This document shows, piece after piece, positions 1,517-25,233 of a stretch of 25,841 nt of DNA. The translations under genes and the position numbers were made by a program. The stretch covers positions 1 to 25,841 of the IMG/VR virus record IMGVR_UViG_3300025617_000101; one strand, 5' to 3'. Within the stretch, counting starts at the first letter, position 1; each line of letters begins with the position of its first letter. The notes below the pieces were generated by a model. That model was given only the letters and a program-made list of their open reading frames with translations, searched no databases and was not told the DNA's origin. Source of the stretch: a virus.

Positions 1517-1532
1517 CCTCTTATCTACCAAT

Positions 1533-2186: not shown

Positions 2187-2421
2187 TTGACAATCCTTTG
2201 TCTGAAATTTTGATATAAGCCGGTTTGTTTGGATCTTCCCAAAGGTCTCGATTTAATACTACCTGAGCACCTTCAACTGGCGCATTGTCACGTTCAAACT
2301 GAGTTACCTTAGCAACCAATTGAGCAATACGAACATCAAAGTCATATTCTCTAAGGTCGCCTGTGACGTAAAGATGCTTGAGATCTTTAAGTTCGTCTAT
2401 TTGATCTAAAATGTCAATCAT
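2179..2421 (-). CDS. Hypothetical protein, 80 aa
   Basis: First gene after the early promoter at 2453-2481, with AGGAG upstream of its ATG. The N-terminal half is acidic and probably helical (MIDILDQIDELKDLKHLY), followed by a region resembling a coiled segment (VRIAQLVAKVTQFERD). No domain recognised. It overlaps the SleB hydrolase by 8 nt, so it may be coupled to it; an accessory role in lysis is possible but not shown. Confidence 0.65.
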   Translation of the reverse strand: MIDILDQIDELKDLKHLYVTGDLREYDFDVRIAQLVAKVTQFERDNAPVEGAQVVLNRDLWEDPNKPAYIKISDKGLSND

Positions 2422-2452
2422 TGCCTTTTCTCCTTTGCCTCATTGTTTATAC

Positions 2453-2481
2453 AGTATAGCCTCACTCGACAGTGAAGTCAA
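2453..2481 (-). promoter_or_regulatory. Early sigma70-type promoter copy 2
   Basis: Minus strand: TTGACT, 17-bp spacer, TATACT, with upstream block TTGGTTAATAAAAGG. Drives the 80-aa protein and the SleB hydrolase. Confidence 0.85.
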
Positions 2482-2488
2482 CCTTTTA

Positions 2489-2737
2489 TTAACCAAAAGT
2501 GTATTCAGGGACCACACCGTTTACTGCCTGTTTGATCTGATCGTTTACAGATTGGGTGTGTTTGCATTTACCGCGAAAGGTAAATCCAGGACAATCACAA
2601 GCGAAACCTTTGGGCTCTAGTGTGATCGAATACTCGCCTGTTCCTTTTGAATTCGCTCTCGTCCAAGTGATGCCTTCGAACAAGTCACGAGCAAACTCAA
2701 AGTCCGGCTTCATGTATTTCTGTGTGAACTTAGGCAC
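2489..2737 (-). CDS. SWIM zinc-finger protein, 82 aa
   Basis: Residues 47-60 carry CxC-x8-CxH (C47, C49, C58, H60) within FACDCPGFTFRGKCKH, the zinc-binding signature of the SWIM family, which usually mediates protein or DNA contacts. The region before it (about residues 22-46) contains a beta-rich stretch (GEYSITLEPKGFACDCPG) typical of SWIM domains. The start is probably GTG at 2737, which overlaps the upstream stop; no other start has a better ribosome site. Stand-alone SWIM proteins are known in marine phages with no assigned role. Confidence 0.75.
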   Translation of the reverse strand: MPKFTQKYMKPDFEFARDLFEGITWTRANSKGTGEYSITLEPKGFACDCPGFTFRGKCKHTQSVNDQIKQAVNGVVPEYTFG

Positions 2738-2924
2738 CGTCGTCCATCTCCAGTTCGTTGTGGATTAGTGCTGAAAGAGTGTCTTCAGGTAGGTATGCTT
2801 CTAAGATTCCTGTGTGAACATCAGCGAACATTTCGTGGATGGCTGTGGTGTCTTTGTTTTGTAGATCATTGCTGATCTGTTGTGCTACCAATTCAACCAA
2901 GTCTTCTTTGTAGGTATTGCTCAT
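2730..2924 (-). CDS. Hypothetical acidic protein, 64 aa
   Basis: ATG 2924 has GGAGAGG upstream and forms an ATGA overlap with the stop of the tiny membrane-protein gene before it. The protein is acidic and predicted helical (YKEDLVELVAQQISNDLQNK, then ILEAYLPEDTLSALIHNELEMDD). No domain recognised. Part of the four-gene operon that starts at 3314-3342. Confidence 0.65.
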   Translation of the reverse strand: MSNTYKEDLVELVAQQISNDLQNKDTTAIHEMFADVHTGILEAYLPEDTLSALIHNELEMDDGA

Positions 2925-3004
2925 TTTGGGTCCTCTCCGTTCCAAGCAATTAGCATCGCAATAGGCAATGCCAACATGATAATCGTTATGATCAAGCCGA
3001 ACAT
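2921..3004 (-). CDS. Tiny single-span membrane protein, 27 aa
   Basis: ATG 3004 opens a 27-codon frame: a hydrophobic segment of about 20 residues (MFGLIITIIMLALPIAMLIA) followed by the polar tail WNGEDPK. GGAG lies 5 nt before the ATG, the start overlaps the end of the upstream gene by 13 nt, and the stop overlaps the next gene's start as ATGA. This tight coupling on both sides supports a real gene. It would be an inner-membrane micro-protein of unknown role. Confidence 0.6.
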   Translation of the reverse strand: MFGLIITIIMLALPIAMLIAWNGEDPK

Positions 3005-3282
3005 AATGCTCCATAGGTCCGATGCTTTTTGATCTGCCACTTCTCAATCACAGGCAATCCAAACTCGTCTTCGTCAACGCAGATGTATGCCACAGTCTTC
3101 TTGACGTTCGCATAGCGCCAGCCAGTCATACCGCATATGCCGCGTCCACCTACCCACACCTTGTGTGGAAAGTCTTCGCCCATATTCATTGGATCGTCGT
3201 TAGTGGAGAACTCAAAATAATTGTTGGTGTCTCGCTCTACGAACGCTCCGATTGGATCTTTGGTGTAAGTGTAATATGCCAT
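2992..3282 (-). CDS. Conserved-type phage hypothetical protein, 96 aa
   Basis: First gene after the early promoter at 3314-3342, with GAGGG before the ATG. It is rich in Gly, Trp and Tyr; the stretch VWVGGRGICGMTGWRYANVKK and the acidic loop VDEDEFGLPVIEKW suggest a compact beta-rich protein. No family can be named with certainty. Its end overlaps the 27-aa membrane protein. Confidence 0.7.
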   Translation of the reverse strand: MAYYTYTKDPIGAFVERDTNNYFEFSTNDDPMNMGEDFPHKVWVGGRGICGMTGWRYANVKKTVAYICVDEDEFGLPVIEKWQIKKHRTYGALCSA

Positions 3283-3313
3283 GTCTTGCCCTCATTGCCT
3301 AACTGTTATATAC

Positions 3314-3342
3314 AGTATAGCCTCAACAGCCTGTGATGTCAA
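3314..3342 (-). promoter_or_regulatory. Early sigma70-type promoter copy 3 with perfect palindrome
   Basis: Minus strand: TTGACA, 17-bp spacer, TATACT, upstream block TTGGTAAAATAAAGG. The perfect 15-bp palindrome ACTGTTATATACAGT lies at 3302-3316, overlapping the end of the -10 and the expected start site. It heads the operon 2992-3282 to 2489-2737. Confidence 0.88.
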
Positions 3343-3361
3343 CCTTTATTTTACCAATTTG

Positions 3362-3991
3362 TTAGATTTTTCCAACATTCAAACGAGGCAGGATTCCTGT
3401 TTCATTTTGGATGCGTGTGAGGTAGGCCTTTTCTATCTGCTTGTGATAAGTGGTAAACGTCTCAAATGGCTCGCCGTAGAGTTTGGATTTGATACCGATC
3501 ATGTCACATCGTTTTGCCCAGATACTGACTTTGCCAACGGCTTGACAGGCCTCTTCGTGTAGGGCCGAACGGATTCGAACGTCGGTATCTCGTTGCCAAC
3601 TGTCTTGGAAGGTCTTGCCAAAGCCTCGCAAGCGTCCTAGTCGACAGGTAGTGCTGATAATCGGTTGCGAAAGATCGCCTCGTTTGGATTGGATACCTAG
3701 TGGTAATCCGGTCTCTCCAATCTTAACAATTTCTTCACCGACAACGATTGCATAGACCCAACTGTTATGATCCTCATACAGGCTTGGTCGTTGTTCTACC
3801 AAGCGCCATGTGCCATCATATGGATCTGCTTCAACATCTGCTACAATTTTGAAGCCGTCCTGTTCATATGTTTTGATGTTCAATAATTCTAAGACTGCCA
3901 TCTGCTTTTTGATCTCCGTAATTTTAAAGGTCGAAAACCGTTGGTTGACTTCTTCAAATAGGCTATCGAATGTGGTGTTGATATTAGTCAT
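3362..3991 (-). CDS. GIY-YIG-like protein, 209 aa
   Basis: Residues 78-94 (WVYAIVVGEEIVKIGET) resemble the GIY-YIG core of T5orf172/MUG113-type proteins (VYxI...VKIGxT), followed by a downstream Arg (SKRGDL, 103-106). The N-terminal 70 residues and the C-terminal half (FKTYH-type helices) are not recognised. ATG 3991 is chosen over an upstream TTG; GGAG precedes it and the gene overlaps the upstream nuclease-like gene by 8 nt. GIY-YIG domains cut DNA in homing and restriction enzymes, so a nuclease role with its operon partner is plausible. The GIY-YIG match is weak and could be wrong. Confidence 0.6.
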   Translation of the reverse strand: MTNINTTFDSLFEEVNQRFSTFKITEIKKQMAVLELLNIKTYEQDGFKIVADVEADPYDGTWRLVEQRPSLYEDHNSWVYAIVVGEEIVKIGETGLPLGIQSKRGDLSQPIISTTCRLGRLRGFGKTFQDSWQRDTDVRIRSALHEEACQAVGKVSIWAKRCDMIGIKSKLYGEPFETFTTYHKQIEKAYLTRIQNETGILPRLNVGKI

Positions 3992-4568
3992 GAGAAAGAA
4001 CTCCTTCAATCAGTTTTCTCTGTGCGTCTGCTTTGATTTGTTTATAGTTTAGTTGGACAGTCTCCTGAACGGAAACGTCAGTGGGTTTGAACATAAAGGT
4101 CAGTTCCTCGAAAGGAATATGCGCCTCAATGCCGTCAGCCACTCCAACTAGGAACGGCTCAACTTCTTTGAATGATATGATTGCGATTGCATCCTGTTGG
4201 CCTATCATGTAATAGTCTGCAGGGTCTGAAATCGTTGTGCCTTTGTTGGCACCTAGGCTGTTCTTAAGTTTGACCTTGACTACCTTCTTTGGAGTCTTGC
4301 CTTTCTTTGTGAACAATCCGTCAGCCACGTATTTGAATTCTAAATCGTAGCCTGTTTCTGTGTCGTGGTGATCACGCCCAATGTCGTCAACCCACTTAAG
4401 GCGTCCGTTGGTATATACCTCTAGGCTCTGTTCGATTATGTCGCTCTTGTCAAATCGATCCTTGCGATCGTTGAGCGTAGTGCCGAGACTTTCGATCAGT
4501 GTGGCGTAGGCTGTTTTATTGAGTGCTTCATTTAAGGTAGAAGCATAAACCTGAGTGTTGGTAGTCAT
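3984..4568 (-). CDS. PD-(D/E)XK nuclease-like protein, 194 aa
   Basis: The central region reads YDLEFK (74-79) followed by a beta strand VVKVKLKNSLG (96-106), then DPADYYMIGQQDAIAIISF. An acidic residue before an ExK, then a hydrophobic strand with K.KNS.G, is the layout of type II restriction endonucleases of the PD-(D/E)XK superfamily; E77 and K79 are the likely catalytic pair. It is the first gene after the early promoter at 4605-4633 and overlaps the GIY-YIG-like gene. No methyltransferase is next to it, so host-DNA degradation is a more natural guess than restriction-modification. The assignment rests on motif layout alone. Confidence 0.6.
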   Translation of the reverse strand: MTTNTQVYASTLNEALNKTAYATLIESLGTTLNDRKDRFDKSDIIEQSLEVYTNGRLKWVDDIGRDHHDTETGYDLEFKYVADGLFTKKGKTPKKVVKVKLKNSLGANKGTTISDPADYYMIGQQDAIAIISFKEVEPFLVGVADGIEAHIPFEELTFMFKPTDVSVQETVQLNYKQIKADAQRKLIEGVLSHD

Positions 4569-4604
4569 TGCAGACTCCTATTTACTATTTCAACTTATAT
4601 ATAC

Positions 4605-4633
4605 AGTATAGTCTCGAAACAGGAGGCTGTCAA
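4605..4633 (-). promoter_or_regulatory. Early sigma70-type promoter copy 4
   Basis: Minus strand: TTGACA, 17-bp spacer, TATACT, upstream block TTGGTAAAAAAGAGG. The palindrome (4593-4607) has two mismatches to the perfect copies. Drives the two nuclease-like genes. Confidence 0.85.
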
Positions 4634-4651
4634 CCTCTTTTTTACCAAACC

Positions 4652-4912
4652 TTACGAATATGCTCGGAACGAACGGATAGGTGAACGATCGCGAACTGCG
4701 CCTTCCTTAACCTCTACGGTGATGTTCTTCAACTTAGCCGCTTTGATGAACTTGGGCATATCGCAATCTTCTTCAAGGTATGCTGTCTTGCCTTTGATGT
4801 ATGAGAATGAGGAAATGTCTGCTTCAATGCCCAACATCTTTAGATCATCCAACTTCACCGCCAACCAGCCGTGACTGGGATCTGAGTGATATACTTTTTT
4901 CATTACTGCCAT
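4652..4912 (-). CDS. Conserved phage/plasmid-type hypothetical, 86 aa
   Basis: ATG 4912 is chosen because AGGAG lies 7 nt upstream; the longer frame beyond it has no ribosome site. The protein begins MAVMKKVYHSDPSHGWLAV and contains SSFSYIKGKTAYLEEDCDMPKFIKAAK, a pattern I associate with small proteins of phages and plasmids of unknown function. It is compact and beta/alpha in character. Second gene of the operon started at 5254-5282. Confidence 0.72.
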   Translation of the reverse strand: MAVMKKVYHSDPSHGWLAVKLDDLKMLGIEADISSFSYIKGKTAYLEEDCDMPKFIKAAKLKNITVEVKEGAVRDRSPIRSFRAYS

Positions 4913-4922
4913 TTTTTTCTCC

Positions 4923-5222
4923 TTATACTTCCATTGAAGCAAGATTATCTTGTTGCATTCCTTGCTCGGTAAAATCCAAGCCCATGATATTAGTGTAGTT
5001 GGCTGCCGCCTCACTGAACGCAGAGTCAGTATAGACATCCCAGGTGCTGTCGTGTTCAACAGCCACATGGCCAATCACTGCACCTTCGTCACCTTCGTCG
5101 CAATCTTCATAGGTGTCAGCGTTCATATATTGAACTGTGAAGCCGGTGAGTGTAACCTCACGTCCTGCTTCTGCACCCCAGTAGCCGTCGCCAGCAAGTT
5201 TGATTGAAAGTGTCTGTGTCAT
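4923..5222 (-). CDS. Hypothetical acidic protein, 99 aa
   Basis: First gene after the early promoter at 5254-5282. It is strongly acidic, with an Asp/Glu cluster DTYEDCDEGDEGA around residues 36-48, and otherwise looks beta-rich (VTLTGFTVQYMNA; AVIGHVAVEHDSTWDVY). No domain recognised. The negative charge would suit a DNA mimic or an inhibitor of a DNA-binding host protein, but the sequence does not prove this. Confidence 0.7.
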   Translation of the reverse strand: MTQTLSIKLAGDGYWGAEAGREVTLTGFTVQYMNADTYEDCDEGDEGAVIGHVAVEHDSTWDVYTDSAFSEAAANYTNIMGLDFTEQGMQQDNLASMEV

Positions 5223-5253
5223 GCTATTCTCCTATTTCCTAACTGTTATATAC

Positions 5254-5282
5254 AGTATAGTCTCACTTGATTGTGAAGTCAA
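5254..5282 (-). promoter_or_regulatory. Early sigma70-type promoter copy 5 with perfect palindrome
   Basis: Minus strand: TTGACT, 17-bp spacer, TATACT, upstream block TTGGCAAAAAAGAGG; palindrome ACTGTTATATACAGT at 5242-5256. Drives the genes at 4923-5222 and 4652-4912. Confidence 0.88.
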
Positions 5283-5301
5283 CCTCTTTTTTGCCAAAAA
5301 G

Positions 5302-5478
5302 TTAATGAATGGTGTCAACACCTTGTTGAGGACCATCATGCTCGATGATGCTCATAATGTTCGCTGGCTTTACCTCAGGACATTCTTCTTCCAGGGTTAG
5401 ACAAGCGTCTGCGAAACTCATAGCAACGACTTCATAGATCTCATTGCTGTCTAATTCAAAATGAAATAATTTAGGCAT
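5302..5478 (-). CDS. Hypothetical protein, 58 aa
   Basis: ATG 5478 has GGAAGG just upstream and overlaps the end of the AT-hook gene. The protein (MPKLFHFELDSNEIYEVVAM...) looks like a small alpha/beta domain with an acidic helix ADACLTLEEECPEV. It resembles many short phage proteins beginning with a FxFEL strand, with no known function. Last gene of the operon from 6414-6442. Confidence 0.65.
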   Translation of the reverse strand: MPKLFHFELDSNEIYEVVAMSFADACLTLEEECPEVKPANIMSIIEHDGPQQGVDTIH

Positions 5479-5674
5479 CTTTCTTTCCTTCCGGATTCTT
5501 TTTAGGACGACCGCGACCATATTTGAATTTGTAGGTCACTTCTTCGCTAGTGGTGCATGGTGGACAGATTTCTATTTTTCCGCCCTTGGCTTTGAATTCC
5601 TCTATCTGTTTATTGAGAGTGTTTCTTGCCTTATCTTTATCTTCACGATAATGTTCATCTTTATTATGAGTCAT
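5471..5674 (-). CDS. Small AT-hook protein, 67 aa
   Basis: Residues 53-59 read GRGRPKK, the core of an AT-hook, which binds the minor groove of AT-rich DNA. The N-terminal 35 residues are a charged helix (EDKDKARNTLNKQIEEFKAK) and residues 37-40 give CPPC, a possible half zinc site. AGGAG lies 5 nt before ATG 5674. It is probably an early DNA-binding protein acting on phage or host DNA. Confidence 0.7.
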   Translation of the reverse strand: MTHNKDEHYREDKDKARNTLNKQIEEFKAKGGKIEICPPCTTSEEVTYKFKYGRGRPKKNPEGKKDA

Positions 5675-5684
5675 CTTTCTCCTA

Positions 5685-5870
5685 TCAGTTATTGGTTAAA
5701 TTTTTAATCTTATCAAACGCATCAGGTTCGGTCTGTTCTTTTACCCATGCCGCTCCGTTGTTGATGCCCTGCTTCATACGTGCGCCAGCATCCTCAAGCG
5801 TCTGTGGAGTAAGAACTCCGTAGCCTACAAGAGCCACAACGATAGCCGCTCCTAAAATCATCTTAAACAT
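5685..5870 (-). CDS. Small membrane-anchored protein, 61 aa
   Basis: The N-terminus MFKMILGAAIVVALVGYGVL is a hydrophobic segment that could be a signal anchor. The rest (TPQTLEDAGARMKQGINNGAAWVKEQTEPDAFDKIKN) is a polar amphipathic helix, probably in the periplasm or cytoplasm. AGGAGG precedes the ATG, a very strong ribosome site. It overlaps the upstream gene by 8 nt. Role unknown. Confidence 0.7.
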   Translation of the reverse strand: MFKMILGAAIVVALVGYGVLTPQTLEDAGARMKQGINNGAAWVKEQTEPDAFDKIKNLTNN

Positions 5871-6093
5871 CTCTACCTCCTAAAAAGTCAATCTGCATTT
5901 TTCTAAAAAAGGGCGAATTGTAAATTTCAATCACTCTGCGATTGTATTCGTCCTCGGTAAGCGCCAGCCCAACCAACTTTCGGCTCCACATTCCGCGGAC
6001 TTCTTCTGACAGTGATTTGTCATCAATCATTCGCTGGATGGCTTGGGCTCGTTGCCACTGTTTTTGTTCTGAGAATGGCCCCATGTTAGGCAT
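5863..6093 (-). CDS. Hypothetical protein, 76 aa
   Basis: A helical soluble protein (EQKQWQRAQAIQRMIDDKSLSEEVRGMWSRKL...). GGAGAGG precedes the ATG, and the start overlaps the upstream gene by 8 nt. A second in-frame ATG three codons in is an alternative start. No domain is recognised; the spacing of charged residues suggests a helical hairpin. Confidence 0.68.
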   Translation of the reverse strand: MPNMGPFSEQKQWQRAQAIQRMIDDKSLSEEVRGMWSRKLVGLALTEDEYNRRVIEIYNSPFFRKMQIDFLGGRDV

Positions 6094-6379
6094 CCTCTCC
6101 GATGCCTAGTTTGGTTAGCATAGTTCCTGGAACTCTCCATTGGGTGCCGGTAGCACTCTCGTTCACAATGATGTATTTCTTGTTCACCTTGCGGACTTGG
6201 CCTGTGACTTGCACACCGTTTTTCTTAACGAAGCCTACAATGTCTCCTACAAGGAAACTTCTCACAGCCTGTTTGGCTAGGTATGTTCGTTTGAGTTTGA
6301 TTGCTTCAATCAAATCGTTCAGTTGATTATTGTCCATTTGGTAGACAAGTTCTGTTGCCTTGGTTACTAGATTGTTCAT
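6086..6379 (-). CDS. Hypothetical protein with SH3/KOW-like C-terminal half, 97 aa
   Basis: Residues 1-38 form helices (LVYQMDNNQLNDLIEAIKLKR). Residues 42-90 look like a small beta barrel: FLVGDIVGFVKKNGVQVTGQVRKVNKKYIIV...WRVPGTMLTKL, a layout common in SH3/KOW-like RNA- or protein-binding domains. It is the first gene after the promoter at 6414-6442, with AGGAG upstream of the ATG. A nucleic-acid-binding role is possible. Confidence 0.7.
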   Translation of the reverse strand: MNNLVTKATELVYQMDNNQLNDLIEAIKLKRTYLAKQAVRSFLVGDIVGFVKKNGVQVTGQVRKVNKKYIIVNESATGTQWRVPGTMLTKLGIGEDA

Positions 6380-6413
6380 GTGCCTATTCTCCTATTGCCT
6401 AATTGTTATATAC

Positions 6414-6442
6414 AGTATAGCCTCAGTTGATTTAGAAGTCAA
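6414..6442 (-). promoter_or_regulatory. Early sigma70-type promoter copy 6
   Basis: Minus strand: TTGACT, 17-bp spacer, TATACT, upstream block TTGGACAATAAGAGG; the palindrome at 6402-6416 has one mismatch. Drives five genes from 6086-6379 down to 5302-5478. Confidence 0.85.
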
Positions 6443-6461
6443 CCTCTTATTGTCCAAAATC

Positions 6462-6647
6462 CTAATATTCTTCATCATGCTTCATTATGTCAGGATTGGA
6501 CTTGGGTCCTTTCCATTTGAGGTAGCCTTGGTCAATAAGACTATCAATAGTATCAACGATCCCACTCTTTCGACCTCGTTCAATTCCCCAATAGAAACCA
6601 AAACCTGTGCCTGCTATGTAGGCAAATAAAATAAAAAGTTCTAACAT
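6462..6647 (-). CDS. Small inner-membrane protein, 61 aa
   Basis: The N-terminal 21 residues (MLELFILFAYIAGTGFGFYWG) form one membrane span, followed by a basic turn ERGRKSG that would face the cytoplasm and a soluble tail (IVDTIDSLIDQGYLKWKG). Two adjacent ATGs exist; 6647 has the better distance from AGGAG. It follows the 171-aa gene by a few bases in the same operon. Function unknown. Confidence 0.65.
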   Translation of the reverse strand: MLELFILFAYIAGTGFGFYWGIERGRKSGIVDTIDSLIDQGYLKWKGPKSNPDIMKHDEEY

Positions 6648-6655
6648 CATATCTC

Positions 6656-7171
6656 CTATGCCGCTTGTTTATTATTAAGTTCTAAATACCGCTTCAACAT
6701 ATTGATATGATCGTTGACAGCGTCAGCCAACAACGGCTTCATATCTGCAATGTCTTTCGCAGGATTTGTGTCAGTGGTATAGAACCATTCATATTTGGGC
6801 TTGTCAGCGGTTCCGATATCTTTTAAGACATAAAGGAATTCCTCACCACAGTTGAATGCCTCATCCAATAAGCAGACTCCGTTCATATGCGTCTTAGGAC
6901 CAGTGTCTTTCTCACCACGGTCTCTACCATAATAACAGTTCTGAACATCGTGACGTGGATCTTTTCTATCGTCAAAGTCAATTTGCTCACCAACCATGAA
7001 TCTCCATGATGAAGCATCTCCTAGTTGGATTCCTGATTCAACTTTGGAATAGTCTGTCCAATGATCAATTAAAGTGTAACCAAGTCCGCCTGGGTATCCG
7101 TCCCAGTGTTGGTATGATGAAATGTATGAACCATCTGTAAGTTCTAACGCAATTCTTGCTCGTGTTGCCAT
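6656..7171 (-). CDS. Conserved phage-type hypothetical, 171 aa
   Basis: The N-terminus (MATRARIALELTDGSYISSY, then QHWDGYPGGLG) carries the QHWDGYPxGxG signature seen in hypothetical proteins of many phages and some bacteria; function is unknown. The rest is a mixed alpha/beta protein with an acidic middle (VGEQIDFDDRKDPRHD) and a C-terminal helix (INMLKRYLELNN). First gene after the promoter at 7209-7237; no strong Shine-Dalgarno sequence is seen before ATG 7171. Confidence 0.78.
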   Translation of the reverse strand: MATRARIALELTDGSYISSYQHWDGYPGGLGYTLIDHWTDYSKVESGIQLGDASSWRFMVGEQIDFDDRKDPRHDVQNCYYGRDRGEKDTGPKTHMNGVCLLDEAFNCGEEFLYVLKDIGTADKPKYEWFYTTDTNPAKDIADMKPLLADAVNDHINMLKRYLELNNKQAA

Positions 7172-7208
7172 AATTTTGTGCCTTTCTGTTTGCCTAACTG
7201 TTATATAC

Positions 7209-7237
7209 AGTATAAGGTCAACATCCTAAGATGTCAA
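7209..7237 (-). promoter_or_regulatory. Early sigma70-type promoter copy 7 with perfect palindrome
   Basis: Minus strand: TTGACA, 17-bp spacer, TATACT, upstream block TTGGTAAAATAAAGG identical to copy 3; palindrome ACTGTTATATACAGT at 7197-7211. The spacer differs from other copies. Drives 6656-7171 and 6462-6647. Confidence 0.88.
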
Positions 7238-7253
7238 CCTTTATTTTACCAAT

Positions 7254-7577
7254 TTACATTGACCAATATGATTCTCTGCTTGGATCCATGTAGGCCGGAG
7301 TGTTCACACTCTGTCTAATGCTAGGACCATCTGGGTTCATCATTGACTTTACATATTCGAACTTTTCAATCTTCTCGTGATAGTGTCCTGCTTCAGCAAT
7401 ACCATTTTGGTATAATGGATATTCTGGATTTGTTGGAAGCATACCGCTTGCCTTGCAGATGCGAGTCAATGCCGCCTTTGCCGCCGCCATTGTTTTATAC
7501 TCAGCCTTCAAATAATGTTTACCCTTTGTTGGGTTTGAAATGATTGCTGATGTTGCCTTGTTGTAAATGTAAAACAT
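7254..7577 (-). CDS. Conserved phage-type hypothetical, 107 aa
   Basis: Single gene after the promoter at 7611-7639. It begins MFYIYNKATSAIISNP and has an alanine-rich helix (YKTMAAAKAALTRICKASG) and the C-terminal stretch YVKSMMNPDGPSIRQSVNTP, a pattern seen in short proteins of marine T4-like phages. No function known. GAGGG lies before the ATG. Confidence 0.72.
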   Translation of the reverse strand: MFYIYNKATSAIISNPTKGKHYLKAEYKTMAAAKAALTRICKASGMLPTNPEYPLYQNGIAEAGHYHEKIEKFEYVKSMMNPDGPSIRQSVNTPAYMDPSRESYWSM

Positions 7578-7610
7578 ATTTTTGCCCTCTGTTTCCTAAC
7601 TGTTATATAT

Positions 7611-7639
7611 AGTATAGCCTCACTGAGGTCAGAAGTCAA
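7611..7639 (-). promoter_or_regulatory. Early sigma70-type promoter copy 8
   Basis: Minus strand: TTGACT, 17-bp spacer, TATACT, upstream block TTGGCAAAAAAGAGG identical to copy 5; palindrome at 7599-7613 with one mismatch. Drives 7254-7577. Confidence 0.85.
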
Positions 7640-7746
7640 CCTCTTTTTTGCCAAAAGATGAAAAAAGATTTTGGTTGACCTACAGAAGAATTGGGTGTAT
7701 TCTATCCAAAATGTTCACAAAATGGTAAAAACTTGATGAGATGAAC

Positions 7747-8708: not shown

Positions 8709-8948
8709 ATGCGAATAGAAGATATAGATGAATCAGTATTAGACGAAGCGAAGGCTAGTGCAAAGTTATGCAAGAGTTCCCGCTCAAACGACTCATTGGG
8801 AGCGAGCGCATTGGCATCATGTAAGAGCCAAGGCTATCGCCGACGTGAAGGTAAAAAGTCACACAAGGTAGGCAAGTCTAGAAAGACTATGGGTGGCAAG
8901 AAAATCCGCGGCAAGAAGTACGGCGGACCTATTCCGGATTGGAGTTAG
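8709..8948 (+). CDS. Basic Gly/Lys-rich protein with capsid-targeting-like N-terminus, 79 aa
   Basis: The protein starts MRIEDIDESVLDEAKAS, an acidic peptide with two (L/I)xE sites (IDE before S, LDE before A), and continues as a strongly basic tail (YRRREGKKSHKVGKSRKTMGGKK) ending GGPIPDWS. An acidic leader before a basic body is the design of T4 internal head proteins, which are packaged via the leader and cut by the prohead protease. There is no Shine-Dalgarno sequence; a late box lies 8 nt upstream. It could be a DNA-bound internal head protein. This is inference. Confidence 0.6.
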   Translation: MRIEDIDESVLDEAKASAKLCKSSRSNDSLGASALASCKSQGYRRREGKKSHKVGKSRKTMGGKKIRGKKYGGPIPDWS

Positions 8949-9495: not shown

Positions 9496-9502
9496 GTAAA
9501 TA
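9496..9502 (+). promoter_or_regulatory. Late promoter box
   Basis: GTAAATA followed by CTATT, then directly ATG 9508; overlaps the end of the YqgE gene by less than a few bases. Confidence 0.5.
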
Positions 9503-9507: not shown

Positions 9508-9873
9508 ATGAACAAGATGAACCAATGGTTGCTTGTCATTGGACTCTTGTTTACTTCTTCAGTCACACTAGCCCAAGAACAACAACCTAACACAAATGAT
9601 TTTGCAACAGTACTTCCAGTAGGAGTATTATGCGGATCACGCGAAATGATAATCAATCCGATTATTCGATCTGGTGAAGTGTTAGTAGCAAAAAACCTGA
9701 CGCAGTTTCGAACAGTAGACGGCGAACCACTTGCGTCAATTGGCGAAATATGGATCAATCCTGAAACTAAAAGTTTTTCGTATGTGTTATCATTTCCTGA
9801 TTCTCCTAATGCGTGTTACATGTTTGGCGGACAAGAGTTTACCGCCGCAGGAACCCCCGGCCAACCTACCTAG
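9508..9873 (+). CDS. Secreted hypothetical protein, 121 aa
   Basis: Residues 1-22 are a Sec signal peptide (MNKMNQWLLVIGLLFTSSVT, then LAQ as a cleavage site). The mature part has two cysteines (CGSRE near 44 and NACYMFGG near 105) that could form a disulphide in the periplasm, and a beta-rich core (EPLASIGEIWINPETKSFSY). I do not recognise a family name, though similar short exported proteins occur in marine phages. There is no Shine-Dalgarno sequence; a late box ends 5 nt before the ATG, so the mRNA may be leaderless. Confidence 0.72.
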   Translation: MNKMNQWLLVIGLLFTSSVTLAQEQQPNTNDFATVLPVGVLCGSREMIINPIIRSGEVLVAKNLTQFRTVDGEPLASIGEIWINPETKSFSYVLSFPDSPNACYMFGGQEFTAAGTPGQPT

Positions 9874-10614: not shown

Positions 10615-10748
10615 TGTGGAAACGTTTTATCAAAGCAATGGAATACCGTTCTTACTGTATGGCAATTCAACAACTACGTAGCAAAGGCTTGTACAAAGAA
10701 GCCCAGCGTGTGAGTGAATATAAACATGCAATGTACGAAACTTTCTGA
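10614..10748 (+). CDS. Small protein sharing the same helical motif, 44 aa
   Basis: ATG 10614 again overlaps the previous stop (TAATG) and the frame runs to TGA at 10746-10748. The 44 residues are basic and helical, with AIQQLRSKGLYKEAQRV matching the layout of AAELSRQGYHEEARAL in the preceding protein. Because the start is coupled and the motif is shared, it is likely a real gene and a partial paralogue of its neighbour. The AOX gene begins inside its end. Confidence 0.65.
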   Translation: MWKRFIKAMEYRSYCMAIQQLRSKGLYKEAQRVSEYKHAMYETF

Positions 10749-11325
10749 TCGAGTAGCATACGGCTTAACTATGTCCTTTCGCTGGTTCGCGGACACGTTC
10801 TTCGCCAAGCGTTATGGACATAGGGCCGTAGTTTTAGAAACTGTAGCAGGAGTTCCTGGTATGGTTGCTGGCATGTGGAATCACTTGCGTAGCCTAAGAA
10901 AGATGCAACCAGACGAACGTGGTTGGATCAAGACTCTGCTAGACGAAGCAGAGAATGAGCGTATGCATCTAATGATCTTTATTGAGATTGCCAAGCCCAA
11001 CTGGTTCGAACGTTTGTTAATAATGTTTGCTCAGTTTGTGTTTTGGCATTTCTATTTTATACTGTACGTGTTCTTCCCCCAGACAGCACATCGTATGGTA
11101 GGATACTTTGAAGATCAGGCTGTAATCAGTTATACGCAATACCTAGAAGAGATTGATGCAGGACGCATTGAGAATATCGAAGCACCAAACATTGCCAAAG
11201 ACTACTATGGTTTAGATTATGATTCAACACTACGTGATGTTGTTATTGCTGTGAGAGCAGACGAACAAGGCCACGCAGATGTTAATCATGAAATGGCAAA
11301 TCAACTGTTGACAAACACTAAATAA
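10726..11325 (+). CDS. aox: Alternative oxidase (ubiquinol oxidase), 199 aa
   Basis: A full di-iron alternative oxidase, which passes electrons from ubiquinol straight to oxygen without pumping protons. All six metal ligands are present (numbered from ATG 10726): E38 in LETVAGVPGM, E78 and H81 in NERMHLM, E129 in GYFEDQAVISYTQYL, and E180 and H183 in RADEQGHADVNH. Hydrophobic stretches (IMFAQFVFWHFYFILYVFF) give the interfacial membrane helices. The length fits short bacterial AOX and the sequence follows the proteobacterial type, not the plastid PTOX of cyanophages. GTG 10714 is a possible longer start. Last gene of the cassette behind the structured leader. It would bypass cytochrome oxidase during infection. 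Confidence 0.93.
   Translation: MQCTKLSDRVAYGLTMSFRWFADTFFAKRYGHRAVVLETVAGVPGMVAGMWNHLRSLRKMQPDERGWIKTLLDEAENERMHLMIFIEIAKPNWFERLLIMFAQFVFWHFYFILYVFFPQTAHRMVGYFEDQAVISYTQYLEEIDAGRIENIEAPNIAKDYYGLDYDSTLRDVVIAVRADEQGHADVNHEMANQLLTNTK
11318..11324 (+). promoter_or_regulatory. Late promoter box made by the AOX stop codon
   Basis: ACT AAA TAA, the last codons of AOX, spell CTAAATA followed by ATACG; 48 nt before ATG 11372. Confidence 0.6.
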
Positions 11326-11816: not shown

Positions 11817-12380
11817 ATGCTAGAAGTTATTGACAATTTTTTACCACAATCATATCAAGATGAGATAGAACAGACTGTTTCGAGACATGACTTTCCGTGG
11901 TACTACCAACCAAACATTACAACAGGTAAACCTAAAGTACAAGACAACCGTTTTATGTACAGTCACGGGTTTACTCATCAGTTTTATCATCAAGAGCACG
12001 GAGTGCAAAGTGCGTTTTGGGGACTTGTACAAAACCTACAACATTTTGTTCCTCACAACACTATGGGATATTATAGGCTGAAAGCAAACTTGACTGTGCC
12101 AGTTACTGGCTGGTCCAATGATACAGTCCAAGAGCCGCATGTTGATATGCCTATTCCTCATCTCGTATGTTTATACTATGCAAATGATAGTGACGGCGAT
12201 ACATTCTTCTTTGATCAAACGTTCAACGAAAAGGCTGAGCCAGACGAATTTACAGTACTCAAAAGAGTTACTCCAAAGAAAGGCCGAGCAGTTATTTTTG
12301 ACGGGCTTCGTTATCATGGTAGTAACAATCCTATAGAAACTCAAGCAAGATTTATTATTAATGCAGGACTGATTATATGA
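11817..12380 (+). CDS. 2OG-Fe(II) oxygenase A, 187 aa
   Basis: A 2-oxoglutarate/Fe(II)-dependent dioxygenase of the prolyl-4-hydroxylase-like type common in marine phages. The metal triad is H108-x-D110 (EPHVDMP) and H167 (LRYHGSN), with R178 in ARFIINAG as the 2OG-binding residue. The conserved stretch YYANDSDGDTFFFD sits between them. Substrate unknown. No Shine-Dalgarno sequence precedes ATG 11817; the nearby ACTAATTAT may be a weak late box. Its stop overlaps the start of a close paralogue. Confidence 0.88.
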   Translation: MLEVIDNFLPQSYQDEIEQTVSRHDFPWYYQPNITTGKPKVQDNRFMYSHGFTHQFYHQEHGVQSAFWGLVQNLQHFVPHNTMGYYRLKANLTVPVTGWSNDTVQEPHVDMPIPHLVCLYYANDSDGDTFFFDQTFNEKAEPDEFTVLKRVTPKKGRAVIFDGLRYHGSNNPIETQARFIINAGLII

Positions 12381-12955
12381 TAGAGGTTGTTGATAATTTC
12401 TTACCTGAAAGTTATGCAGATGAGATTGAAACTACTTTAGGGAACTACAACTTCCCTTGGTACTATAGGCCAAGTATTAATAACGGCAAGCCTAAACTAC
12501 ATGACTCACGGTTTAAGTATGCTCACGGATTTGTTCATAACTTTTTTAATGACGAACAAGGACCCATGAGTAATTATTATCCTACAGTTAGCACACTTAA
12601 ATACTTTGCAGAGAAACATGGCTTTAATAATAGCGGCTATCACAGACTGAAAGCAAACTTAAATGTACAAATACCTAACTGGCAAGATGGACAATGTCAA
12701 GAACCTCATACTGATATGCCCAGCGATCATATGGTACTCATCTATTATGTTAATGATAGCGATGGGGATACTTTTATATTCGATCGTAAGTTTGATCCTA
12801 TGGATCCCAACCCTGGTGAGTTTAATATCAAACAAAGAGTAAGTCCTAAAAAAGGAAGAGCCTTACTATTTGACGGTAACTTTTATCATGCCGGAAGTTA
12901 TCCTATCCAGCACAGTCATAGGATAATGCTTAACGCAAACCTAATTACTACTTAA
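12377..12955 (+). CDS. 2OG-Fe(II) oxygenase B, paralogue of A, 192 aa
   Basis: Tandem duplicate of the preceding gene. Both begin M-[LI]-E-V-[IV]-D-N-F-L-P and share FPWYY, GKPK and YxNDSDGDTF. Metal ligands are H111-x-D113 (EPHTDMP) and H171 (NFYHAGS), with R182 (SHRIMLNAN) for 2OG. ATG 12377 overlaps the stop of gene A as ATGA. The two are clearly diverged at the protein level, so the duplication is old or they came from related phages; they may have different substrates or form a heterodimer. Confidence 0.88.
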   Translation: MIEVVDNFLPESYADEIETTLGNYNFPWYYRPSINNGKPKLHDSRFKYAHGFVHNFFNDEQGPMSNYYPTVSTLKYFAEKHGFNNSGYHRLKANLNVQIPNWQDGQCQEPHTDMPSDHMVLIYYVNDSDGDTFIFDRKFDPMDPNPGEFNIKQRVSPKKGRALLFDGNFYHAGSYPIQHSHRIMLNANLITT

Positions 12956-12970
12956 TCATTATCTGCGCAC

Positions 12971-12977
12971 ATAAATA
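12971..12977 (+). promoter_or_regulatory. Late promoter box of the ALA synthase gene
   Basis: ATAAATA followed by GTTGC and then ATG 12983. The start site would lie at or within a few bases of the ATG. Confidence 0.6.
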
Positions 12978-12982
12978 GTTGC

Positions 12983-14179
12983 ATGATAGACAAGACACCG
13001 TTTGAAAATCTAATCAACAGCCTAAAAGATGACGGAAAGTATCGTACGTTTAACGACATATTGCGTGAACGTGGAGAGTTTCCTAATGCTATCTGGTACG
13101 GCAAATATGCAATTAAGAACATTGTGAATTGGTGCTCAAACGATTATCTTGGCATGGGTCAGAACAAGGTTGTTCTAGACGCAATGCATACTGCACTAGA
13201 TCAAACTGGAGCAGGCTCGGGCGGCACCCGTAACATTGCAGGCACATCTCACTATCACGTGGCGCTCGAATACGAGTTGGCTCATTTGCATAGCAAAGAG
13301 TCGTCGCTCTTATTCACGTCTGCTTATGTAGCAAACGAATGGAGTCTGGTGGCACTAAAACGCATCATTCCCGACATTGTGTTCCTAAGTGACAGCAAGA
13401 ATCACGCTTCCTTAATACAAGGAATCCGACACAGTGGTGCTGACAAACAAATATTCAGGCACAATGATCTTGACCACCTAGAGGAATTACTAAGAGACGT
13501 CGAAGGCACCCCTTGCATAGTCTTCGAATCCGTGTATAGCATGGACGGGTACGTGAGTAAACTTCCAGAGATTTGTGCATTAGCAGAAAAGTACAATGCC
13601 ATTACCTATCTTGATGAAGTTCATGCAGTGGGGCTGTACGGGAGTACAGGCGCGGGGTATGCAGATGAACTTGGCTGTCTTGACAAGATAGATATCCTAA
13701 ATGGTACACTTGGTAAAGCCTTTGGGGTGCAGGGCGGATACATAGCAGGGAATCGCTCTGTCATAGACGCTATCCGCTCTGTCGCCTCAGGCTTTATTTT
13801 TACAACATCAATGAGTCCTGTACTTTGTGCAGGGGCATTGGCAAGTGTAAAGTATCTTAAGGATCATAACGAACTAAGACAACAACACCAACAAAGAGCG
13901 AAGGCTCTAAAAGTAGCATTGGCTAACGCAGAGATCCCTGTAATGGAAAACTCAACACATATTGTTCCAGTAATGATAGGTGACGCTAAACAAGCAAAAG
14001 CAATGAGCGATTTGTTATTAGACGATTATAATATCTATTGCCAAAGTATTAACTATCCAACTGTTGAAGTAGGAACAGAACGCTTGCGTTTTGCTCCCAC
14101 ACCATATCATACAGATGCTATGGTCAGCAACTTAATTGATAGTTTGCGTAAGGTTTTTAAGCGTAGCCAAGGATACTGA
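12983..14179 (+). CDS. hemA: 5-Aminolevulinate synthase (ALAS), 398 aa
   Basis: Complete PLP enzyme of the alpha-oxoamine synthase family that joins glycine and succinyl-CoA to 5-aminolevulinate, the first step of heme in the Shemin pathway. Diagnostic regions: NDYLGMGQ (53-60), [17 protein letters not shown] (76-92), [14 protein letters not shown] (136-149), [12 protein letters not shown] (209-220) and GTLGKAFG (241-248) with K245 as the PLP lysine, then FIFTTSMSP (271-279). GTRNIAGT and the late FAPTPYHT favour ALAS over its relatives KBL and BioF. Length matches bacterial ALAS (about 400). No ribosome site; late box 5 nt upstream. Function in the phage is presumably extra heme or other tetrapyrrole. 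Confidence 0.95.
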
Positions 14180-14189: not shown

Positions 14190-14609
14190 ATGAATAAAAT
14201 AAAAAAATATCTATGGATGGGACTTGGTTTCTTATCTTTAGGAATGGCATACATTGGAGTAATAGTTCCGGGCATTCCATTCAGTATCTTCTTAGTGTTC
14301 TCGGCATATTGTTTTGCTAAGAGCAGTAAGCGTATGCATGATTGGTTATACAATCACAAATACTTTGGACCGTTCCTAACTAATTGGGTACAGAAAAGAG
14401 TATTCCCTACCAAAGGCAAGTATGCGATGGTGGCAGTAATGTCGTCCTCGTTAGCATTCCTTTGGTTTACAACAGGCAACATCAAAGCAGTACTATGGAG
14501 CGGAGGCTTTATGGCATTGGTCGCTCTGTGGGCATGGCGTTTTCCAGGTTCAGTTGCCGAACACGAAAAGCGTACTAAATTAGGCAAGAGGATTGGATGG
14601 CTCAAATAG
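14190..14609 (+). CDS. DUF454 (YbaN-like) membrane protein, 139 aa
   Basis: The N-terminal part LGFLSLGMAYIGVIVPGIPFSIFLVFSAYCFAKSSKRMHDWL followed by NHKYFGPFLTNW is the DUF454/YbaN signature: two hydrophobic segments, a P-G-x-P turn, A-x-C-F-A-[KR]-S-S and a [NH]-x-x-F-G-P. Two more spans lie around residues 75-110. AAGGA precedes ATG 14190, 10 nt after the ALAS stop, so the two are one operon. Cellular DUF454 proteins have no proven role, but some lie near heme-uptake genes; with ALAS next door a heme link is possible. Confidence 0.85.
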   Translation: MNKIKKYLWMGLGFLSLGMAYIGVIVPGIPFSIFLVFSAYCFAKSSKRMHDWLYNHKYFGPFLTNWVQKRVFPTKGKYAMVAVMSSSLAFLWFTTGNIKAVLWSGGFMALVALWAWRFPGSVAEHEKRTKLGKRIGWLK

Positions 14610-15166
14610 ATAGTATTGTTACTTGGGACAACTTCTTCCCTGACGATGTGTTTGCAGACCTTATTGCAAAAAGTGAATATGTTCCGTGGAAGTATTGTGA
14701 AGTAGTGAGTGAAAGTTCAGGACTTACACAAGAGCACCTTGTTGAACGTTTTATGACGTGGAACATATATGAAGAAGGTGCAATTCATTTTGATCCAATG
14801 AATATTATGCAACCCATTGACGAGTATTGTCGTACTAATATTCAACAAACCTATCCCGATGCAGATGTGCATGACATGAAACGATTGCGCTTTAATGGCA
14901 CTATGAAAGGTGAAGGTTATGTAATGTGGCCACACGCAGATATACATGGTGACCAACCAACTGTCTACACTATTGTTGTATATCTAAATGGCGATGGTGG
15001 CACATCTTTTTACGATCAAAAAGGTGGCAACATAATTAAGACAGTAGACTTCAAACCTAATCGTGCAGTAATGTTTCCAAGCACAATGTGGCACAATGCT
15101 GAATCACCAACACAAAGTTATTTTAGAACGAGTCTTGGTATAGTTTATATGATTGATAATATTTAG
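14597..15166 (+). CDS. 2OG-Fe(II) oxygenase C, 189 aa
   Basis: A third dioxygenase, distinct from A and B. Metal ligands: H113-x-D115 (WPHADIHGD) and H166 (TMWHNAES), with R177 (YFRTSLGIVY) for 2OG. The strand YTIVVYLNGDGGTSFYD is typical of the phage prolyl-hydroxylase-like group. It overlaps the DUF454 gene by 13 nt, with AGAGG before its ATG, so it belongs to the ALAS operon. Substrate unknown; a strong two-way terminator follows. Confidence 0.87.
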   Translation: MAQIDSIVTWDNFFPDDVFADLIAKSEYVPWKYCEVVSESSGLTQEHLVERFMTWNIYEEGAIHFDPMNIMQPIDEYCRTNIQQTYPDADVHDMKRLRFNGTMKGEGYVMWPHADIHGDQPTVYTIVVYLNGDGGTSFYDQKGGNIIKTVDFKPNRAVMFPSTMWHNAESPTQSYFRTSLGIVYMIDNI

Positions 15167-15167: not shown

Positions 15168-15197
15168 AATAAGCCCCCATTGGGGGCTTATTGTTTT
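15168..15197. terminator. Strong bidirectional terminator
   Basis: 11-bp stem AATAAGCCCCC / GGGGGCTTATT, loop ATT, with GTTTT on the plus side and A-rich DNA on the other. It lies between two convergent genes and can end both. Confidence 0.9.
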
Positions 15198-15513: not shown

Positions 15514-15604
15514 TAGGAGCATTGGGCTCCGTGCAGGGCAACGTTGAGCCCTGTCTTAGTATGTGAGCGCCGTGGTAAAAGCGGCAAGCAGAGGAGAAAT
15601 AATA
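15514..15604 (+). ncRNA. Structured 5' leader of the PiT-like gene
   Basis: About 90 nt between a perfect late promoter and ATG 15605 with three hairpins: GGAGC/GCTCC (15516-15530), CAGGGC/GCCCTG (15534-15553) and GCCG/CGGC (15569-15585), then an unpaired GAGGAG ribosome site. The density of GC stems is high for this AT-rich region. It may control translation or stability. Confidence 0.5.
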
Positions 15605-16564
15605 ATGGACGCACTCACCCTATGGATGGCTGTTGGTTTCCTGTTCGCAGGTTACGCAGTTATCGCAAATGATAGTGTACAAACTCTCGGTACATGGATC
15701 GCAAGTAATAACGAACGTTTTAATTGGAAAGTGATGTGGGGAGCGGCTAGTGCTGTTCTACTGTATACACTTTGGTATGGTTGGTACGCCAACGGTGGAG
15801 ATATTAGTTATGGACGACTAAACAAAATACCGTTTCAAGAGATACAATGGTATCATGCTATGGCACCGGGTCTACTATTAATACTCACACGAATAGGTGT
15901 ACCGGTATCAACTTCCTTTCTAGTGTTGAGTGCTTTCGCAAGTACCTTTGTGCTGGAAAAGATGTTGATGAAAAGCATGATGGGCTATGCAGTCGCGGCT
16001 GTGGCGGCATATTGTATTTGGATAGTAGTTACTCGACTACTCGACGAAGCAAAGCCTGTTAAAGAAGAACATAAACGAGCATGGCGAATAGCACAATGGG
16101 TGACAACAGGCTTCCTGTGGTTTACTTGGCTAAGTCATGACATGGCAAACATTGCTGTGTTCCTTCCAAGACAAGTTCCATGGGACCTAATGATCCTAGT
16201 GAGTCTTGTGTTTGTTGTAGGACTTGCGTTTATGTTTAAAGAAGGCGGAGGAAAGATTCAAAAGATTGTACTTGAGAAACACAATACTAGATATGTAAGA
16301 AGTGCTACCATCATTGATGGTGTGTACTGGCTAATATTGTTTTTCTTTAAAGAACTAAACGATATTCCAATGTCAACAACATGGGTGTTCGTAGGTTTAC
16401 TGTGTGGACGAGAACTTGCTATGGCAACTATAACAGGCAAGGAAAAGTTCAAGACAGTGTTTCCGTTAGTGACCAAAGACTTCTTCAAGATGATGATTGG
16501 ACTAGGTGCTTCGGTAGGCGTAGTGTTAATGATACACTATGTTATAGTACCAAACGGACTGTAA
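15605..16564 (+). CDS. PiT-like (inorganic phosphate transporter family) membrane protein, 319 aa
   Basis: Polytopic inner-membrane protein with about nine hydrophobic spans. It shows the inverted-repeat plan of the PiT family: VIANDSVQTLGTWIAS (19-34) and FTWLSHDMANIAVFLPR (173-189) match the two PiT signatures (GxNDxANxxGT and SHGxNDxANxxxP), and GVPVSTSFLVLSAFAS (98-113) and DIPMSTTWVFVGLLCG (253-268) match the paired (I/V)PxST motifs. It is shorter than cellular PiT (400-500 residues) and the second ND has become HD. ATG 15605 has GAGGAG upstream. Substrate could be phosphate or another anion; this rests on motif reading only. Confidence 0.72.
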   Translation: MDALTLWMAVGFLFAGYAVIANDSVQTLGTWIASNNERFNWKVMWGAASAVLLYTLWYGWYANGGDISYGRLNKIPFQEIQWYHAMAPGLLLILTRIGVPVSTSFLVLSAFASTFVLEKMLMKSMMGYAVAAVAAYCIWIVVTRLLDEAKPVKEEHKRAWRIAQWVTTGFLWFTWLSHDMANIAVFLPRQVPWDLMILVSLVFVVGLAFMFKEGGGKIQKIVLEKHNTRYVRSATIIDGVYWLILFFFKELNDIPMSTTWVFVGLLCGRELAMATITGKEKFKTVFPLVTKDFFKMMIGLGASVGVVLMIHYVIVPNGL

Positions 16565-18196: not shown

Positions 18197-18204
18197 CATA
18201 AATA
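18197..18204 (+). promoter_or_regulatory. Late promoter box
   Basis: CATAAATA followed by GTTAT, 19 nt before ATG 18224. Confidence 0.6.
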
Positions 18205-22690: not shown

Positions 22691-23113
22691 ATGAAGATTA
22701 TAGTTAAAACACTGCTAGACATTACTGAAACTAAGAAGCACAAGCACAACTCGTATGACAAACGTGATGTTAACCAGCAGAGTAACTTTATGAGTTTCTT
22801 TAACTGTTTGAGTATGCGTTTTAATCCTTACTATGAAGTTGGCCCGACTGTTAGTAAAGTAGATGTCAAAGGGCTAGGGTTCGGATCCAAGTATACTGGC
22901 AAGCATAATGTATGGGAATTTGAGTTTGACTTGGAACTTGCAGTCGCTGGCATCGATCATAGCACATTAGTTAATGACTTTGATTTAATACCAGTTATAC
23001 CCGATCTAAATGAAACTATTAAAGTAAATAACAATATGTTTAGGACCAAGGACAAAGAACTGATAAACATACTCTTTATACTACCAGATAATAATGTCAG
23101 TGACCCCAACTAA
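22691..23113 (+). CDS. Hypothetical late protein, 140 aa
   Basis: ATG 22691 (MKIIVKTLLDITETKKHKH) is preferred over an in-frame ATG six codons upstream, which falls on the terminator tail. The protein has a basic N-terminal third, then a beta-rich middle (YEVGPTVSKVDVKGLGFGSKY; WEFEFDLELAV). It resembles unnamed single-domain proteins of marine T4-like phages. It has no ribosome site, and a late box variant ends 5 nt upstream. Confidence 0.68.
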   Translation: MKIIVKTLLDITETKKHKHNSYDKRDVNQQSNFMSFFNCLSMRFNPYYEVGPTVSKVDVKGLGFGSKYTGKHNVWEFEFDLELAVAGIDHSTLVNDFDLIPVIPDLNETIKVNNNMFRTKDKELINILFILPDNNVSDPN

Positions 23114-23467: not shown

Positions 23468-23755
23468 ATGCTAGTAAATGAAATTGCCATATCACTTGAC
23501 GAAAAACAAATATGGGCTCGATCCGGTAAAAAAGTCGTGCGCAAATATCGATGTGGGTCAGGACAGCGTAAAGGACGTATTGTATCTAAAATAGGACAGT
23601 GCTTTGCGGCACCAAATGTCAAAGCAAAGATACGCATGAAAAAGACTCGTGCTAGATTAGGAGTTAGAATGGCTCGCAAGGCCAAGCGTACTAAACGTAT
23701 TAATCCAGCAAGTGTTAGAGTGCAACGTATGAATAAAAAGAGTAAGCGTAGATGA
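23468..23755 (+). CDS. Highly basic two-cysteine protein, paralogue 1, 95 aa
   Basis: Starts MLVNEIAIS and soon becomes strongly basic: GKKVVRKYRCGSGQRKGRIV, then a second Cys (QCFAAP) and an Arg/Lys tail (RMARKAKRTKRIN...NKKSKRR). The core K-[KL]-V-R-K-Y-R-C-x-S-G-x-R-K-G-R-I-V with a Cys about 14 residues on recurs in the next gene. It probably binds DNA or RNA, with the two cysteines as a metal or disulphide pair. It may be an internal head protein. Its stop overlaps the next start as ATGA. Confidence 0.72.
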   Translation: MLVNEIAISLDEKQIWARSGKKVVRKYRCGSGQRKGRIVSKIGQCFAAPNVKAKIRMKKTRARLGVRMARKAKRTKRINPASVRVQRMNKKSKRR

Positions 23756-24821: not shown

Positions 24822-25233
24822 TGTAATACAACATCTAAATGAAATTATCGAGGACGGTGTTTCTCGTTATCCTGTCCCTGTGAAAAAAGGAAATAGCATT
24901 AGAATAAAAAATGTTGTTGTCCGTAAAAACAAAAAAGGATATCATATTTTCAACCTAGCCGATAAAGAGTATCATAATTACACGTACTCGCTAGCCACAG
25001 CATTAGCAATAGCACACACAATTGCAGTAGATAAATGTAGTGATGTAGAGAAGATTGAATATTTAGATGCTAAATTAAGTAAATACTATAACGATGCGAT
25101 ATTTCATAAGTATACATTAGAACACAGTGACGATGAAATCCGCAGAGATTCGGCAGAAATGCGTTATGATATTGCATTGGACGAGTGCCGTAGGCTCAAA
25201 CAACAGATAGAAGACTACATATTTGATAAATAA
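24802..25233 (+). CDS. Hypothetical late protein, 143 aa
   Basis: ATG 24802 is chosen over an upstream ATG in the same frame because the protein then begins MNPTNRDVIQHLNEIIEDG and the overlap with the previous gene is short. The middle SIRIKNVVVRKNKKGYHIFNLADKEYHNYTYSLATALAIAH looks like a beta hairpin followed by helices, and the C-terminus is helical (DECRRLKQQIEDYIF). Similar unnamed proteins occur near the end of this late block in marine T4-like phages. Confidence 0.7.
   Translation: MNPTNRDVIQHLNEIIEDGVSRYPVPVKKGNSIRIKNVVVRKNKKGYHIFNLADKEYHNYTYSLATALAIAHTIAVDKCSDVEKIEYLDAKLSKYYNDAIFHKYTLEHSDDEIRRDSAEMRYDIALDECRRLKQQIEDYIFDK
25225..25232 (+). promoter_or_regulatory. Late promoter box over a stop codon
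   Basis: GAT AAA TAA, the last codons of the preceding gene, spell GATAAATA; 25 nt before ATG 25258, with AAGGA between. Confidence 0.6.

Follow-up and report, generated by a model that had tools for sequence, protein, structure and literature searches.

The 5-aminolevulinate synthase (ALAS) gene of the marine phage record analyzed here is probably read from its own T4-type late promoter as a leaderless mRNA, and is probably one of a class of such genes in ALAS-carrying T4-like phages and SAR11 phage HTVC008M. The record is a fragment of 25,841 nt (25.8 kb), referred to here as the window. In the mechanism we propose, RNA polymerase carrying the phage sigma factor gp55 would use the T4-type late promoter of ALAS, the transcript would begin at the A of the ALAS AUG, and the 5′-AUG of the leaderless message would be bound by 70S ribosomes; the DUF454 protein and 2OG oxygenase encoded on the same RNA would be translated from ordinary ribosome sites. 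A fixed subset of late genes, including those for terminase, tail tube and neck proteins, would carry the promoter 4–5 nt before the ATG, the rest having it at ~17–30 nt together with a Shine-Dalgarno (SD) sequence. We infer the actual 5′ ends, 70S initiation, timing, activity of this ALAS and benefit of ALA from sequence, and read-through from upstream could yield leadered ALAS copies as well. As the earlier note on this DNA had stated, viral ALAS genes have been reported before. Since phage ALAS is already known and the CB_2 phage copy was shown to be active (Wegner et al., 2024, PMC11480375), the enzyme itself is not new; what appears to be new is the predicted arrangement for its expression.

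The ALAS enzyme and its gene neighborhood

The ALAS ORF has no internal stop and matches the ALAS model TIGR01821 at 4e-175 (582.5 bits; cut-off 338.6). Among solved structures, the best matches are the bacterial ALAS 7x98 and that of R. capsulatus, 2bwn, and the start codon call is supported by an alignment to 2bwn from residue 8 and by M1, which is invariant in 16 viral homologues. The PLP lysine and substrate residues of R. capsulatus ALAS, which we take to be K248, H142, D214, T83, N85, R374, and T365, have their counterparts in K245, H141, D211, T82, N84, R369, and T360. All are kept and invariant in the 16 viral copies; they comprise the catalytic lysine, the histidine that stacks on PLP, the aspartate, and the residues for succinyl-CoA and glycine. 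Within the GGTRNI motif (80–85), G80-T82-R83-N84-I85 are likewise invariant. The earlier note's description of an intact ALAS with PLP lysine and substrate motifs is borne out by these matches. The heme-feedback residues are absent: His342 of R. capsulatus is replaced by Q337, and Cys400 has no C-terminal Cys as counterpart, the nearest residue being S395. Many viral ALAS proteins lack these residues (PMC11480375).

Relatives of the window ALAS are encoded in at least 507 viral-contig stretches, and the phage isolate collection has no close one (all <60% identity). In a quick version of a tree with viral and cellular sequences, the kind of placement proposed in the earlier note, viral ALAS formed one clade with support 96, made up of 44 viral rows and 6 from MAGs or bacteria, and Pelagibacteraceae stood as its sister group. 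It is extremely improbable that the protein is instead another alpha-oxoamine synthase, such as BioF, glycine C-acetyltransferase (KBL) or serine palmitoyltransferase. These enzymes belong to the same fold family and their models gave weaker matches, each under its own cut-off, but TIGR01821 is the only model with a score above its cut-off, the residues on the succinyl-CoA side are retained, and the tree places the protein beside Pelagibacteraceae ALAS. Judged by its sequence, the ORF is an intact ALAS and no sister enzyme, and this copy is presumably active.

The window consists of a minus-strand block with sigma-70-like promoters (46–7577) and a plus-strand block with T4-type late promoters and a head/packaging gene at its end (Table 1). 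Phage isolates offer only distant relatives of its proteins, most of them in cyanophages and some in pelagiphages and methylophages. Searches of the window for tRNAs and Rfam families gave no match.

Table 1. Features of the ALAS region and of putative late gene starts in the window
Feature	Position	Strand	Remarks
Small ORF, TAAATA-N8-ATG	8709..8948	+	G009 homologue (64% identity) has TAAATA-N5-ATG
ORF, signal-peptide-like start, TAAATA-N5-ATG	9508..9873	+	TAAATA at 9497-9502
2OG-Fe(II) oxygenase paralogue	11817..12380	+	PF13640 0.0014, under Pfam cut-off
2OG-Fe(II) oxygenase upstream of ALAS	12377..12955	+	PF13640 2.4e-05, just under Pfam cut-off
T4-type late promoter element CATAAATA	12970..12977	+	Predicted +1 is A of ALAS ATG
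5-aminolevulinate synthase (vAlaS), 398 aa, ATG	12983..14179	+	Predicted leaderless first gene of operon
DUF454 (YbaN-like) membrane protein, AAAGGA ahead	14190..14609	+	PF04304 1.9e-29
2OG-Fe(II) oxygenase downstream of DUF454	14597..15166	+	PF13640 6.3e-07
Terminator-like hairpin AATAAGCCCCC-ATT-GGGGGCTTATT-GTTTT	about 15168..15196	+	Read by eye
Leadered-type late promoter CATAAATA	18197..18204	+	19 nt with AAGGA, then virion protein ATG at 18224 (phrog_11854)
ORF, TAAGTA-N5-ATG	22691..23113	+	G007 and G009 homologues (41%, 37% identity) have TAAATA-N4-ATG
ORF, TAAATA-N8-ATG	23468..23755	+	G009 homologue (69% identity) has TAAATA-N5-ATG
Leadered-type late promoter GATAAATA	25225..25232	+	25 nt with AAAGGA, then head/packaging gene at 25258 (phrog_14154)

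ALAS is predicted to head an operon with DUF454 and a 2OG oxygenase, as the earlier note had proposed. The DUF454 gene starts 10 nt past the ALAS stop, the oxygenase gene overlaps it, both have their own SDs, and the hairpin closes the unit; a terminator scanner that needs five T did not report this hairpin. Of 62 non-redundant viral loci, 26 have DUF454 immediately after ALAS, and this frequent adjacency suggests a tetrapyrrole-related role for DUF454. No such adjacency was seen among the matches listed for 96 alphaproteobacterial genomes, and a literature search on a heme link of DUF454 turned up passing mentions only. The order DUF454-ALAS-PcyX occurs in four loci (L062, L073, L074, and L079). 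A cassette of HemO with PcyA or PcyX is present in some viral ALAS loci and stand-alone ALAS copies occur too (PMC11480375); PcyX was found in 3 of 69 relatives, and neither HemO nor PcyX was found among the scanned ORFs neighboring the window ALAS.

An alternative oxidase (AOX), a heme-free ubiquinol oxidase, is encoded at 10726–11325 of the window (PF01786, 2.3e-79). It has relatives in at least 115 stretches of viral contigs; Phage C48C1 is the sole isolate record with one, annotated as hypothetical, and no paper on phage AOX outside cyanophages was found in the literature searched. ALA would feed heme and, with AOX 1.7 kb upstream of ALAS, respiration may be the target. AOX was also considered as a second leaderless gene and rejected, since the promoter motif is present at none of ~47 viral AOX starts and the AOX start in the window overlaps an upstream ORF.

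A promoter position that predicts no leader

At the ALAS start, CATAAATA is followed by GTTGC and then by the ATG. In T4, late promoters occupy −13 to −6 (PMC1524935); because the element ends 6 bases before the ATG, this numbering places the predicted +1 at the A of the ATG. No SD was found in the 45 nt upstream of the ATG and no sigma-70-like site at the start, and the predicted message is unpaired over its first 15 nt. From the density of TAAATA in the window, a spacing of 5 nt would be expected by chance at ~0.02 of its ~40 gene starts; it was observed at two (9508 and 12983). The claims in the earlier note of a private late promoter and of no ribosome site both agree with this layout, and its suggestion of a possibly leaderless mRNA gains weight from the recurrence of the arrangement at ALAS genes of many lineages with unrelated upstream DNA and at core late genes of related phages. 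The terms "late" and "leaderless" as applied to ALAS are predictions from promoter position. In the window, short spacings occur at the starts 8709, 9508, 12983, 22691, and 23468, and the starts at 18224 and 25258 are leadered.

Upstream regions of other viral ALAS genes were compared using 153 usable starts, which gave 88 distinct 35-nt sequences. TAAATA was found 4–9 nt before the ATG in 63 of these, with a mode of 5 (1, 22, 10, 9, 18, and 3 sequences at 4, 5, 6, 7, 8, and 9 nt, respectively). Spacings of 7–9 nt predict leaders of 2–4 nt, and such messages would be near-leaderless, not strictly leaderless. TAAATA stood at 24 nt in two sequences and was absent within 30 nt of the ATG in 23. 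About a quarter of viral ALAS genes, then, have a different start arrangement; because of these 23 sequences, and because some ALAS starts abut or overlap an upstream stop codon, leaderless expression is not required for ALAS in all phages. The DNA flanking viral ALAS loci is often unrelated, with the motif and its spacing alone persisting. Many loci also carry a second, opposite-facing TAAATA a few bases upstream, and the divergent transcript has an SD (e.g., TAAATATTCAATCGGAGATTA on the reverse strand of L186), which provides a built-in control. Such back-to-back late promoters, TATTTA-(few nt)-TAAATA, with one side leadered with an SD and the other leaderless, occur in L186, L195, L208, L215, and others.

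ALAS could alternatively be translated from longer read-through transcripts that start upstream of the 2OG oxygenases, either through coupling to the stop codon at 12955 or through non-SD initiation in an A/U-rich context, with CATAAATA being minor or inactive. The stop of the upstream 2OG gene, 27 nt before the ALAS ATG, would suit such coupling, as would the ALAS genes of some other phages that abut or overlap an upstream stop. We consider this explanation unlikely, however, as the motif reappears at precisely this spacing where the upstream DNA is unrelated, and a divergent promoter ahead of ALAS in many loci means that there is no co-directional reading from just upstream. Initiation by A/U-richness is further countered by permuted A/T hexamers, which form no spacing peak (see below).

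A predicted leaderless class of late genes in related phages

The reading of ALAS as leaderless extends to a genome-wide set comprising three long ALAS-phage contigs (275, 237, and 147 kb) and HTVC008M. TAAATA-to-ATG spacing in this set is bimodal, with 18 starts at 4 nt, 50 at 5 nt, none at 6 nt, and a broad group at ~17–30 nt. SD-like tetramers precede 6 of 77 leaderless-type starts (3–8 nt) vs. 73 of 105 leadered starts (~17–30 nt). Permutations of the A4T2 composition, with shifted readings of the motif excluded, gave at most 7 starts at spacings 3–9, and this lack of a peak argues against plain A/U-richness as the cause. A pattern search for the arrangement was positive in all 14 ALAS-phage records searched, with 99 matches vs. 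19 for the reversed pattern. The leaderless-type genes include those for terminase large subunit, tail tube, head-tail adaptor gp13, and virion proteins, and orthologues in different phages retain the short spacing at 60% (terminase), 52% (neck-type protein), 41% (virion protein), and 40% (tail tube) identity. About 12 sites with a spacing of 5 nt in HTVC008M coincide with annotated CDS starts; starts with TAAATA-N5-ATG in this phage include 6280, 7562, 11972, 18943, 19456, 31132, 49760, 75559, 75830, and 142360. TAAATA also lies 4–5 nt before the ATG of a cyclase-annotated gene in HTVC008M (11972–13807) and of a gene in one long contig (G007:133242–135299; phrog_35576), and the two starts are similar.

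The short-spacing peak was absent in the controls T4, Syn9, P-SSM2, Cr30, and phiM12. The TAAATA peak of T4 lies at 26–28 nt and those of Syn9 and P-SSM2 at ~20–26 nt; Cr30 and phiM12 have no peak, and Mosig and Melnitz have about one short-spacing TAAATA each. Taken together, the shared spacing, the absence of SDs and the retention in orthologues suggest that ALAS belongs to a predicted leaderless late class that spans the clade. This set, predicted to lack both leader and ribosome site, seems to be a kind of late mRNA that has not been described before; the open-licence literature yielded no account of leaderless late genes in T4-like phages.

The promoters have the form known from T4 late genes, (N)ATAAATA ahead of late genes and no −35 element at the TAAATA sites. 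A gp55-type late sigma is encoded by two other ALAS phages (G121 and G122; phrog_12791, 7e-79 and 2e-80), in which it was first reached by a phrog_12780 search. Searches of the first ALAS-phage records with Mosig gp55, phrog_12791, and phrog_234 gave no match among virus records, and gp55 was found neither in the window, itself a fragment, nor in G007, G009, or G016. A separate promoter type occurs in the window (1473–7663) as eight near-copies (59–83 nt) of a strong sigma-70-type promoter, TTGACT-N17-TATACT, with leader and SD, before minus-strand genes.

It is conceivable that TAAATA at a spacing of 4–6 nt is instead a host sigma-70 −10 element, in which case ALAS would be an early leaderless gene and not a gp55-dependent late one. 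There is precedent in Deinococcus-Thermus, in which −10 elements beside ORFs make leaderless genes (PMC12340547); as here, the promoter element is placed for a transcript start at the start codon, although there it is a host −10 element in bacteria and here a predicted phage late sigma site. Such an origin is nevertheless highly unlikely, given that the TAAATA sites lack a −35 element, that structural genes belong to the TAAATA class, that ALAS phages encode gp55, and that the minus-strand genes of the window bear a different, sigma-70-like promoter.

A broader idea, which is speculative and in our view rather doubtful, is that a clade of T4-like phages of alphaproteobacteria uses a single type of late promoter for two modes of translation. 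Selection would keep ALAS and the genes for terminase, tail tube and neck proteins leaderless, and their messages would be favored once ribosomes or initiation factors are altered in late infection, amounting to a translational switch through promoter placement.

Comparison with known systems and the likely host

Sigma-factor switching is classically illustrated by the late genes of T4, whose messages are leadered and depend on an SD. The ALAS phages resemble T4 late transcription (gp55/gp33/gp45; TATAAATA at −13 to −6) in the promoter element, the lack of a −35 element and the gp55-type sigma of related ALAS phages. The late promoter of T4, Syn9, and P-SSM2 lies ~20–30 nt upstream, however, whereas in the ALAS-phage subset it lies at 4–6 nt, which would leave no leader. 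Leaderless mRNAs are well known in alphaproteobacteria, with 375 in Caulobacter and 171 in S. meliloti; in Caulobacter they are common, are translated as well as leadered ones and include hemE (PMC4117421). These resemble the messages predicted here in having the AUG at or near the 5′ end and no SD, and the likely host group would be accustomed to translating such messages, but they derive from cellular genes and promoters and not from a phage late regulon. The vAlaS of Wegner et al. (2024, PMC11480375) is similar in its occurrence in pelagiphage-related phages, its lack of heme-feedback residues and its clade beside Pelagibacteraceae ALAS. In contrast to it, the window ALAS heads a DUF454 and 2OG oxygenase operon with no adjacent HemO or PcyX. 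No description of a vAlaS expression signal was found in the parts of that paper considered here.

If a conserved subset of core late mRNAs of a marine T4-like clade does start at the AUG, the way in which start codons are called, promoters predicted and expression modeled in these phages would need to change. The cultured pair of HTVC008M and SAR11 HTCC1062 makes the class directly testable. The arrangement would also offer a specific means of expressing a viral gene through which the host is committed to making more tetrapyrrole in late infection.

The earlier note took ALAS to point to an alphaproteobacterial host. ALAS alone does not imply this, as a gammaproteobacterial host has been proposed for one ALAS phage (Wegner et al., 2024, PMC11480375), yet such a host is likely because of AOX, DUF1127, a phasin-like ORF and the membrane-protein gene at 15563. 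Kin of the latter gene (15563–16564) occur in 9 of 385 alphaproteobacterial genomes. It encodes a polytopic membrane protein with a weak PHO4 match that is up to 96% conserved between ALAS phages and is absent from phage isolates. Phage-type ALAS also turns up in bacterial assemblies. That of Neisseriaceae bacterium PsAf (L255:6001–7188) shares its contig with LptD and ABC transporter genes and branches within the viral clade, and is possibly a case of phage-to-bacterium transfer. Three contigs of one Rhodobacteraceae bin (L256, L259, and L318), which carry a phage-type ALAS with DUF454 downstream, are probably misbinned phage DNA.
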